In this document: piece by piece, positions 21,972-25,700 of the stretch
Layout: each line of letters opens with the position of its first letter
How positions within the stretch are numbered: position 1 is the first letter of the stretch
IMG/VR virus record: IMGVR_UViG_3300020371_000049
Location: 1 to 25,907 of that record
Strand: one strand, 5' to 3'
Origin: a virus
DNA: 25,907 nt
Translations under genes and position numbers: made by a program
The notes under the pieces: model-generated
What the model saw: the letters and a program-made list of their open reading frames with translations, nothing else
What the model was told of the DNA's origin: nothing
Database searches by the model: none

Positions 21972-24900
21972 ATGTCAGGCCCATTTGGTTCACAGCAATG
22001 GATGTACAATGCTAGCAGTGGGTTTTATCCCTATGAGCTAAACAACTCTTTAAAGTTTGAAGATGGCGATAGTGCATATCTAAGCAGAACACCATCAAGT
22101 GCTGGCAATAGAACAACATGGACATTATCAATGTGGGTAAAAAGGGCTAACATTAGCACTAGCCAAATGTTGTTTTCCGCAGGAACTTCAAGCATTCATT
22201 ATGCAAATATTCAAAGCGATAATACAATTCGTTGGAGAAATTCTACACTTGATTATGAAACTACACAAGTCTTTCGAGACTCATCGGCGTGGTATCATCT
22301 TGTATTTAAATGGGATACAACAAACTCAACAGCCGCAGATCGGGCTGAGATTTATGTTAATAACGAAAAAATTACTGTTTATGATGTAAAAACAAACGCT
22401 AGCTCTAGTGAAAATAGTATTTGGAATAATAACGTCAAGCATACTTTAGGAAACTATGCTTATAATAATACTCTTTACTTTGACGGTTACATGACCGAAG
22501 TAATCTTTATTGACGGCACTGCTCTAGATCCTAGCAGTTTTGGAGAAACCAAAGAAGGTATCTGGATACCCAAAGATCCAACAGGTTTAACCTACGGCAC
22601 CAATGGTTTTCGTTTACCTTTTACAGCAACAACAACAGCTAACGGTTTTAATACAGTTACTTATGAGGGAACTCACCCAACACAACAAAGCGTAGAAGGT
22701 GTGGGATTTCAACCTAATTTTGTTTGGGTAAAAGAAAGAGATGGTACTGCATCTCATGGACTATTTGATAGTGTAAGAGGGGTAGAAAAAAGATTAAAAT
22801 CCCAAGCAACTGATGCAGAAGCAACATCATCAAGCAGTGTAACATCATTTCATAGCGATGGTTTTACCGTTGGAAATAACACTGGCGTAAACAGTGATGG
22901 AAAAGACTATGTTGCATGGTGCTGGGGTGGTGGCACTAACGATAAAACATATACTGTAACTGTTGTTGATGATAGTGGTAATAAATACAGATTTGATGGA
23001 CATGGAACAAGTTCAATAACTCTTGAGCTTACTGAGGGTGCTACTTATACATTTAACTATCCATCTGCTCACCCACTTAGATTTTCTACAACATCCGATG
23101 GTACGCATGGCGGTGGATCAGAATATACAACTGGTGTTACTCATGTAAGCGGTACACAAACAACATTTACTGTACCTTCTGGTGCGCCAGTTTTATATTA
23201 TTATTGTTCAATTCATAGTGGCATGGGTGGTCAAGTAAACACCAACACAACAGATGGTCCTACTCATGCAGAGGGTACAATACTTTCAAGAGCAAAACCA
23301 AATGCTGACTATGGGTTTAGTATTGTAACTTGGACAGGTAACGGCACTGACGGAGCTACAGTAGGTCATGGGTTAAGTCAAACACCTGAAATGATTATAA
23401 TTAAAAAAAGAGCCAATAATTCTGGTGGAAATATAGGAAATTGGATTACTCAACATGTTGGTTTATCAACCACTCCAGAAGCAACGTCTAGCACTTTTAC
23501 GCTAAGTGGTTATACAAATGGCGCAATTTATTTAAATCTTAATATGGCGCAATCTAGTTATGGTTTTGATGATCAAGTTAATGGCAACACAGACACTTTT
23601 GTAGCGTATTGTTTTCATAGTGTTGATGGCTATCAAAAGCTAGGAAGCTATACTGGTACTGGTTCGTCAGGTAATTCTATCACTGGCCTTGGTTTTAAGC
23701 CAGCTTGGATTATGATTAAAAGAACAGACTCTGCTGATGATTGGTGTATATATGACAACACAAGGCACCCTAGTGCTTCTACTGATACACGGCTAGAAGC
23801 AAATGATACTGCCGCTGAAGTGTCTGCTTCTAGCATTGAGATTACGTTTGATAGTGATGGATTTACTGCAAATGGAACCAATTCATCAATTAACACATCT
23901 GGCGGCACCTACATCTATCTAGCTATAGCAGACACAAGGGATGCACTTTTTACTTCAGACGCATCTGGCAATGGCAACAACTGGACGCCTAATGCTTTAC
24001 AGCATAGCGATGTTATGCCTGACACTCCGACTGATGGGTTTGCTGTTTTAAACGGTATTACATCTGGAAGTAGTGTTGGTACTTTGACCGAAGGTAACTT
24101 GCAATATCAAGGAGCGTCTAGTCAATGGGAAAGTAAAGTATCTACTATTGGGGTAAGTTCTGGCAAATGGTATTATGAAGTAAACCCAATATCTGGATCA
24201 TCATCACAAGGTATTTTCTTTGGCATAATTAATATGTCTGATACTTACCTAGTCTCATATCTAGGTAACTATGGTAACTCTTGGGGTTACTATGGATTAA
24301 ATGGTGCAAAATATAACAATGCGGCAGGAGTAGGTTACGGTGCTACTGTAGCTGATGGTGACATAGTAGGTGTTGCTCTTGATGTAGATGCTGGGACACT
24401 TACGTTTTATAAAAATGGTGTGTCTCAAGGTGTTGCTTTTTCTGGTTTGTCTTTAGGTGGTAGTTACGACACAGAATGGTTTTTGGGTTTGTCTTGTTAT
24501 GGAACAGCAAAGGCTGCTATAAACTTTGGACAAGACAGTAGTTTCTCAGGCAGACTTGTTGCTCAAGGCAATGCAGATGATAACGGCAAGGGTGACTTTT
24601 ATTACGCACCACCGTCAGGACATTTAGCTCTTTGCAATGCTAACCTACCTGATCCAGCTATTGATCCTGCTGCTGGTGATGCCCCAGAGGATCATTTTAA
24701 TACTGTGTTTTATAGTGGTAATTCTGGTTCAGGTAATGCTGTTACTGGTGTTGGCTTTCAGCCTGATTGGACATGGGTTAAATCAAGAAACACTTCTGGT
24801 GAGGCTCAAAAAGTAGTAGACTCTGTGCGTGGTGCTGGACTTACTGTTTTTCCTAGCGGCGCATTTGCCGAGACTGATTATAGCGGTGGAGTTGGTTTTG

Positions 24901-25700
24901 ATAGTTTTGATGCTGATGGCTTCACTGTTAGCCACAATGCCGCAAACAATCAATGGAATGTTTCTGGTCGTACTTACGTTGCATGGAACTGGAAAGCTGG
25001 CGGCACTGCTGTTGCAAATGACGATGGAGATATTGACACAAACGTATCTGTCAATGATGATGCTGGTTTTTCTATAATTAGTTATACTGGTAATGGCTCA
25101 AGTTCTATACAAACAATAGGTCATGGTTTATCTACAAAACCAGATTTAGCGTTTATCAAAGTTAGAACTCAAGGCTATAATTGGATGGCTCTTTTTGATT
25201 GTTTAAATGGTTCTTTTGATTACATCCAAGGTTTAAATACAACTGCTGTTGCTGCAAATTATTCAGGCACTTTTGCAAATGCAAGCACACTTACGTTGCT
25301 TGCTAGTAGTGGAAATGTAAACGGATCGGGTGAAAATTATATCTGTTATTGTTTTGCATCAAAAGATGGCTTTAGTAGAATGGGTCAGTATATTGGAAAC
25401 GGTAGTTCAAATGGGCCGTTTATGTATACTGGGTTTAGGCCAGCATTTGTTATGGTAAAAGCAGCAACAGGGGCCGTTCAGCACTGGTGGATGTTTGATA
25501 ATAAGAGAGAGGGTTATAACGTAGACAATGATCCTCTTTATGCAAACCTTACTAGTGCAGAAGGCGCACAAAACATGATAGATTTTTATTCAAATGGTTT
25601 TAAGATAAGAAATTCTTCAGCTTCAGTGAATGGTTCTAATGTTAACTATCTTGTTATGGCTTTTGCCGAACAACCTTTTAAATATGCAAACGCACGATAG
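21972..25700 (+). CDS. Large mosaic tail fibre (LamG, cupredoxin-like, SPRY, six repeats)
   Basis: A 1242-residue receptor-binding type protein. Residues about 25-195 are a LamG-like jelly roll (L-S-M-W-V-K-R, W-Y-H-L-V-F-K-W, Y-F-D-G-Y-M-T-E-V-I-F-I-D-G). About 224-322 is the first of six related modules marked by 'F-P-x5-K' and a terminal Y-V-A-W-C-W-like strand; the others lie at about 450-555, 558-656, 908-1015, 1031-1128 and 1130-1240. Between modules 1 and 2, residues 323-425 form a cupredoxin-like domain with H367, C412, H415 and M418. Residues about 717-860 are SPRY-like (W-Y-Y-E-V, D-I-V-G-V-A-L-D, L-T-F-Y-K-N-G). It lacks a T7-type anchor, which the adaptor upstream supplies. Confidence 0.85.
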   Translation: MSGPFGSQQWMYNASSGFYPYELNNSLKFEDGDSAYLSRTPSSAGNRTTWTLSMWVKRANISTSQMLFSAGTSSIHYANIQSDNTIRWRNSTLDYETTQVFRDSSAWYHLVFKWDTTNSTAADRAEIYVNNEKITVYDVKTNASSSENSIWNNNVKHTLGNYAYNNTLYFDGYMTEVIFIDGTALDPSSFGETKEGIWIPKDPTGLTYGTNGFRLPFTATTTANGFNTVTYEGTHPTQQSVEGVGFQPNFVWVKERDGTASHGLFDSVRGVEKRLKSQATDAEATSSSSVTSFHSDGFTVGNNTGVNSDGKDYVAWCWGGGTNDKTYTVTVVDDSGNKYRFDGHGTSSITLELTEGATYTFNYPSAHPLRFSTTSDGTHGGGSEYTTGVTHVSGTQTTFTVPSGAPVLYYYCSIHSGMGGQVNTNTTDGPTHAEGTILSRAKPNADYGFSIVTWTGNGTDGATVGHGLSQTPEMIIIKKRANNSGGNIGNWITQHVGLSTTPEATSSTFTLSGYTNGAIYLNLNMAQSSYGFDDQVNGNTDTFVAYCFHSVDGYQKLGSYTGTGSSGNSITGLGFKPAWIMIKRTDSADDWCIYDNTRHPSASTDTRLEANDTAAEVSASSIEITFDSDGFTANGTNSSINTSGGTYIYLAIADTRDALFTSDASGNGNNWTPNALQHSDVMPDTPTDGFAVLNGITSGSSVGTLTEGNLQYQGASSQWESKVSTIGVSSGKWYYEVNPISGSSSQGIFFGIINMSDTYLVSYLGNYGNSWGYYGLNGAKYNNAAGVGYGATVADGDIVGVALDVDAGTLTFYKNGVSQGVAFSGLSLGGSYDTEWFLGLSCYGTAKAAINFGQDSSFSGRLVAQGNADDNGKGDFYYAPPSGHLALCNANLPDPAIDPAAGDAPEDHFNTVFYSGNSGSGNAVTGVGFQPDWTWVKSRNTSGEAQKVVDSVRGAGLTVFPSGAFAETDYSGGVGFDSFDADGFTVSHNAANNQWNVSGRTYVAWNWKAGGTAVANDDGDIDTNVSVNDDAGFSIISYTGNGSSSIQTIGHGLSTKPDLAFIKVRTQGYNWMALFDCLNGSFDYIQGLNTTAVAANYSGTFANASTLTLLASSGNVNGSGENYICYCFASKDGFSRMGQYIGNGSSNGPFMYTGFRPAFVMVKAATGAVQHWWMFDNKREGYNVDNDPLYANLTSAEGAQNMIDFYSNGFKIRNSSASVNGSNVNYLVMAFAEQPFKYANAR

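Follow-up and report, generated by a model that had tools for sequence, protein, structure and literature searches.

The window, i.e., the whole stretch of 25,907 bases analysed here, is a viral record with terminase, head–tail adaptor, major head and tail genes. Its terminase is closest to that of Methylophilales phage MEP301, at 66% identity. The gene of interest encodes a long tail fibre or virion structural protein (Table 1), which matches two PHROG families, phrog_19943 (virion structural protein, E 8e-270) and phrog_24898 (tail fiber protein, E 3e-132). The N-terminal region of this protein presumably resembles a concanavalin-type lectin fold. Further along, the protein carries two versions of a DUF7483-type sequence: an interrupted one in the N-terminal half and a complete one at the C-terminus.

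The two parts of the interrupted copy flank a domain of about 100 residues. The upstream flank aligns with the first half of the C-terminal DUF7483 domain (39% identity, E 2e-14) and, additionally, with residues 438–556 of MEP301 gp16, while the downstream flank aligns with residues 114–329 of the C-terminal domain (33% identity, E 2e-31). Because the flanks align successively with the C-terminal DUF7483 (residues 5–106 and 114–329 of that stretch), the domain sits in a short linker between the repeat halves. The linker of the C-terminal DUF7483 domain has no insert. Both the domain and its four putative metal ligands were found exactly where the preliminary description had placed them.

Table 1. 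Features of the tail fibre gene, in positions of the window
Feature	Residues	Position	Strand	Basis
Tail fibre / virion structural protein, 1242 aa	1–1242	21972..25700	+	Open reading frame; phrog_19943 and phrog_24898
N-terminal region, family of unknown function	33–223	22068..22640	+	phrog_27411, E 2e-71 (whole protein)
First half of the N-terminal DUF7483-like repeat, directly 5' of the insert	203–321	22578..22934	+	Similarity to C-terminal DUF7483
Cupredoxin-like domain, between the halves of the DUF7483-like repeat	323–425	22938..23246	+	AlphaFold2, PDB profile and fold matches; empty site in locus L147
First predicted metal ligand, immediately ahead of a beta strand	H367	23070..23072	+	Sequence, PDB-profile alignment, census
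Predicted thiolate ligand, strand end, only Cys of the domain	C412	23205..23207	+	Sequence, PDB-profile alignment, census
Predicted metal ligand, loop ahead of the last strand	H415	23214..23216	+	Sequence, PDB-profile alignment, census
Predicted axial ligand	M418	23223..23225	+	Sequence, PDB-profile alignment, census
Second part of the N-terminal DUF7483-like repeat	431–654	23262..23933	+	Similarity to C-terminal DUF7483
SPRY domain	732–853	24165..24530	+	PF00622, E 2.9e-14 (whole protein)
C-terminal DUF7483 domain	905–1235	24684..25676	+	PF24299, E 7e-184 (whole protein)

Fold of the inserted domain

Searched as a single sequence, the window domain had no match of note in the PDB (phmmer, best E 3), and it matched neither the Pfam copper families, including Copper-bind (PF00127), nor NCBIfam. 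A profile built from 32 diverse copies of the module (A1) placed a cyanobacterial plastocyanin at the top of its PDB hits (E 0.002), followed exclusively by copper proteins down to rank 10. Copper proteins account for 33 of the 40 hits up to E 10, and comprise plastocyanins, amicyanins, rusticyanins, pseudoazurins, nitrite reductases, multicopper oxidases, and a CuA subunit; the remaining seven are antibody chains and a polygalacturonase, and no phage protein is found among the 40. Aligned with plastocyanin, the phage module places its His, Cys, His, and Met on the four ligands of that protein. Copper-bind itself matched five of the 32 relatives at E <= 1. The fibre of cyanophage P-SSM2 carries two copies of the module, the second of which passes the Pfam threshold (23.3 bits versus a cut-off of 21.2; protein scanned whole), and it is the only one to do so among the proteins scanned with Pfam.

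The AlphaFold2 model of the domain, based on a 22-row alignment, is a beta sandwich of nine strands with a pLDDT of 80.6. H367 precedes a strand, C412 ends one, and H415 and M418 lie in the loop before the last strand, so that the predicted ligands are positioned as in cupredoxins. A second model, of a fibre piece with its flanks, reached a pLDDT of 55.4 and was set aside. Structural comparison by Foldseek returned cupredoxins in 49 of the 50 best rows, headed by a type II secretion chain at rank 1, with modest TM-scores to PDB cupredoxins in the rows listed (0.40–0.49 by query length). With VIA-align, all 50 rows listed are cupredoxin-type proteins, counting coagulation factor VIII, which we take to be one. 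The examples include a nitrite reductase (Z 9.6, rmsd 3.4 over 101 residues) and rusticyanin (Z 9.4, rmsd 2.7 over 95 residues), with the reservation that Z-scores of 8–10 are only little above the 7–8 usual for models without a clear match. Thus, the cupredoxin-like fold put forward for this domain is backed by the PDB profile, the AlphaFold2 model, Foldseek, and VIA-align, the predicted topology having been judged from structural matches rather than from coordinates.

In BFVD, 57 entries matched at E <= 0.001, and those with names include S-RIM14 gp9, the P-SSM2 proximal tail fibre, and a virion protein of S-TIM5. Three giant-virus 'beta-sandwich' proteins of 124–169 aa were also retrieved with the domain model at E 3e-8 to 4e-6 (A0A481Z6J5 and A0A481Z7Q7 from Pithovirus; A0A481YVH3 from Marseillevirus).

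A four-ligand set across relatives

The motif C412-x2-H415-x2-M418 is the sole C..H..M arrangement in the 1242-residue fibre. When the protein was shuffled 20,000 times, any C..H..M appeared in 0.195% of the shuffles, and one with a His 41–76 residues upstream in 0.115%. His, Cys, His, and an axial Met, i.e., the ligands of a type 1 copper site, occupy the conserved positions of the fold, as judged by sequence and strand position.

We performed a census of these residues by searching the collected loci with a profile whose four ligand columns had been masked, which yielded 193 rows from 162 loci. Leaving out two fragments with fewer than 60 aligned columns gave 191 rows; loci L090, L144, L146, and L148 were left out as duplicates. 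All four ligands are present in 184 rows, none in six, and one (the Met only) in a single row, while rows with two or three ligands do not occur. At less than 50% mutual identity (24 rows), the corresponding numbers are 19, four, and one. The preliminary description had named frequent replacement of C412, H415, or H367 in homologues as the outcome that would speak against a metal site; the census went the other way, and the recurrence of the four residues as a set in 184 of 191 copies settles the observation as real. These proportions favour copies that keep the ligands, because the IMG/VR and genome loci were retrieved by peptide-pattern searches, and certain patterns extended into the ligand loop. 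Named phage records, which were found by whole-domain tblastn and several of which were chosen for truncated-looking matches, have all four ligands in 35 of 44 rows (12/15 and 23/29). The nine other rows amount to seven copies from about three protein families, since two copies are each split into two rows.

Full-site rows are defined by their ligands, which are thus bound to be invariant within them. More telling are two absences: intermediates do not occur, and, at the lower identity cut-offs, no other column is invariant save one: among the 19 full-site copies less than 50% identical, a Tyr is the only invariant position beyond the site. A like set of 18 full-site copies, taken from the unmasked profile, has a median pairwise identity of 30% and a minimum of 20%. 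At the ligand sites, synonymous codons are freely exchanged (first His, CAC/CAT 93/91; Cys, TGT/TGC 103/81; second His, CAC/CAT 102/82). The ligand loop reads C-x2-H-x2-M in 183 of the 184 full-site copies and C-x2-H-x3-M in one, and the Cys is the only one of the domain in 175, which makes an intradomain disulphide impossible in those copies.

The seven copies lacking the set (L081, L160, L158, L157, L088, L152, and L149) belong to baseplate, fibre, or structural proteins of cyanophages; the carrier in L160, for instance, is a baseplate wedge protein. Six of the seven share their protein with a full copy, as in L081, where residues 367–469 hold a full site and residues 562–693 an empty one (L081:4996-5391). 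Their persistence in virion proteins indicates that not every use of the fold depends on a metal.

The module recurs in many tail parts of aquatic phages

Five related fibre stretches were retrieved through the upstream flank, four of which carry the module. The fifth (L147:2001-2996) is a close fibre relative whose DUF7483-like linker continues without interruption, so that the insertion site is cleanly empty. The fibre of MEP301 also lacks the module. A tblastn search of 50,697 phage records matched 330 records with the cyanophage gp9 form, 58 with the window form, 48 with the P-SSM2 form, and 24 with a fourth form, in record sets that overlap. Of the matching records, which number several hundred, 28 loci of named phages were inspected for the module. 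By organism name, the carriers are cyanophages, Pelagibacter and Methylophilales phages, marine or uncultured phages, and one lake Actinomycetia phage; no enteric phage appears in the organism tallies of these tblastn matches. The module is found in fibres, proximal fibres, the cyanomyovirus gp9 connector (at its C-terminus), baseplate wedge proteins, and a subtilisin-like protein. This cupredoxin family is therefore a movable module common to many aquatic-phage tail parts.

Several contigs of Pelagibacteraceae (SAR11), 57–133 kb in length, also contain the module (L091, L092, L094, L100, L101, and others). In L091 it lies within a T7-type tail fibre (PF03906), which makes integrated or co-sorted pelagiphages the likely source. 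Three further settings deserve a brief description. The cyanophage loci L163:1315-3327 and L164:1273-3327 encode a subtilisin-like protein and a hypothetical protein with the module at the C-terminus. The freshwater Actinomycetia phage copy (L154:2110-3495) is neighboured by collagen-like genes and a tryptophan halogenase. On a SAR116 contig, an RTX-like repeat and DUF5648 are joined to the module in one protein (L113:5938-7056), which is possibly cellular instead of phage.

Copper as the probable metal and comparison with known systems

The cupredoxin module is common in the virion appendages of aquatic phages and conserves a copper-type site there, beyond chance and beyond one fibre; its fold, its ligand set, the conservation of the ligands as a set, and its modular insertion have been established by computation. 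Type 1 copper is classically held in this way, by a lone Cys, two His, and a Met in a cupredoxin loop, and the findings as a whole suggest that the virus particles carry copper. We consider it likely that residues 323–425 of the window fibre form a cupredoxin module whose type-1-like copper site is intact, and that this module is inserted in a linker, displayed on the virion, loaded with copper, and active at host contact. Beyond the modest structural scores, the lack of a match for the window copy by itself, and the persistence of ligand-less copies, two findings count against a copper site: no single match to a solved cupredoxin is strong, the best being the profile hit at E 0.002, and the first His is followed by Pro, not Asn, in 173 of the 184 full-site copies (Gly in 6, Ala in 4, and Gln in 1). 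Asn follows the first His in many cupredoxins, and that of plastocyanin is visible in the PDB profile alignment.

We infer copper as the metal, its occupancy in virions, and a role in adsorption, along the following lines. Judging from the carrier proteins, the module would be displayed outside the capsid, on a fibre or connector. Each copy would take up one copper ion, probably after assembly, because the cytoplasm holds little free copper, and possibly after lysis. The module could then act at the first contact with the host, either as a metal-loaded binding face or as a redox-sensitive element. The empty site in L147 indicates that the fibre can fold without the module, so the module adds a function, and given sites on fibres, a fibre connector, and the baseplate, a metal-dependent contact or a redox-sensitive adsorption step is the simplest reading. 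The role of the metal may be structural, and the metal may be other than copper.

A bolder proposal, which we regard as rather doubtful, is that the copper is redox-active within the adsorption machine: copper-loaded fibre and gp9 cupredoxins would sense or exploit redox conditions at the host surface, or else engage a copper or redox receptor of the host, and so contribute to triggering attachment. They might underlie light-dependent adsorption of cyanomyoviruses, and phages would form a ligand pool for dissolved copper in the sea. Light dependence of cyanophage adsorption is described in a passage of PMC2984593, and its connection with a redox-active connector is speculative.

Three alternatives to a copper site at the host contact were weighed. 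The same four ligands might bind zinc or iron as a structural site that staples the loop and lends the domain rigidity in sea water, without any part for copper or redox chemistry. Metals in phage fibres have precedent, as iron is held at HxH motifs of T4 gp37 according to a passage of PMC11705849. This alternative is nonetheless unlikely: a His plus C-x2-H-x2-M in a cupredoxin fold aligns with type 1 copper sites and differs from HxH, and copies that lost the site remain in place, contrary to a metal required for stability. It is quite improbable that the domain is the metal-free scaffold that the preliminary description had allowed as an alternative, a beta sandwich of cupredoxin fold used as a spacer or for binding, in which His, Cys, His, and Met are inherited packing residues. 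The ligand-less copies do demonstrate that the fold serves without metal in virion proteins, and the domain is optional in the fibre. Packing residues, however, would be expected to drift one by one, and the all-or-none pattern of the census (184 copies with four ligands, seven with none or one, and none with two or three) is what a metal site would lead one to expect and hard to square with such a scaffold; moreover, His and Met conserved alongside a single Cys are understandable chiefly if a metal is bound. Finally, the alignment might mislead, and the domain might be an immunoglobulin-like sandwich of separate origin that arrived at the motif by convergence. This notion, encouraged by antibody chains among the weak profile hits, by PDB TM-scores below 0.5, and by a Foldseek rank 1 that is not a copper protein, is most improbable in view of the cupredoxins at all of Foldseek ranks 2–50 and in every VIA-align row listed, and of the acceptance of the second P-SSM2 copy by PF00127.

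If copper is bound, the virions of cyanophages, pelagiphages, and methylophilales phages would rank as metalloprotein particles. In that case, a domain of gp9 and numerous fibres, often sequenced but apparently never remarked upon, would become a testable element of adsorption. Copper binding would also carry the iron idea about phage tails over to copper, and provide a handle on both the light-dependent adsorption of cyanophages and the phage share of organic copper ligands in sea water. The natural ligand-less copies are useful metal-free controls. None of the literature matches listed ties a cupredoxin or type 1 copper to phage tail proteins, and an earlier remark is possible in subscription papers and preprints, which lay outside their scope. 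The copper-binding passage of PMC8115048 concerns viral NirK, not tail proteins, and plastocyanin, wherever it occurs in the passages of PMC3037559, PMC8115048, PMC11705849, PMC5083919, and PMC2984593, is the petE gene.

Among known cupredoxins, amicyanin was the one first proposed for the window copy, on account of its ligand spacing. The C-x2-H-x2-M loop indeed agrees with amicyanin, but the His–Cys distance does not: it is 45 in the window copy and 41–76 across the full-site relatives, versus 39 in amicyanin (His53–Cys92, in the numbering of the preliminary description). This spacing led us to reject amicyanin membership, and a specific kinship lacks support in the PDB profile search as well, in which amicyanins (best E 0.12) rank below plastocyanins. 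Plastocyanin and the Copper-bind family share the fold and four ligands in register with the module, and one phage relative scores above the Pfam cut-off, although the window copy is unrecognised by PF00127. Unlike plastocyanin, the phage module is fused inside virion tail proteins, has Pro, Gly, Ala, or Gln after the first His, and has a ligand loop of C-x2-H-x2-M versus C-x2-H-x4-M.

Phage-encoded cupredoxins are already known in the form of cyanophage petE plastocyanin, which passages of PMC3037559 and PMC5083919 present as an auxiliary metabolic gene. petE is a free-standing gene whose product is read as working in the electron transport of the host, whereas the module belongs to virion proteins, so phage petE plastocyanin is ruled out as the identity of the module. 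A link to a named structural protein is provided by the cyanophage gp9 baseplate wedge–tail fibre connector (phrog_677), whose C-terminal domain is the same module (E 6e-13) on another carrier protein; the domain goes unmentioned in the annotations seen, which give the connector name. The HxH iron sites of T4 gp37 and the associated 'Ferrojan/Trojan horse' idea, as given in a passage of PMC11705849, resemble the module in making tail-fibre metal a possible route to host contact. They differ in ligands, in fold, and in the probable metal, the phage module being a folded domain rather than a motif along the fibre.
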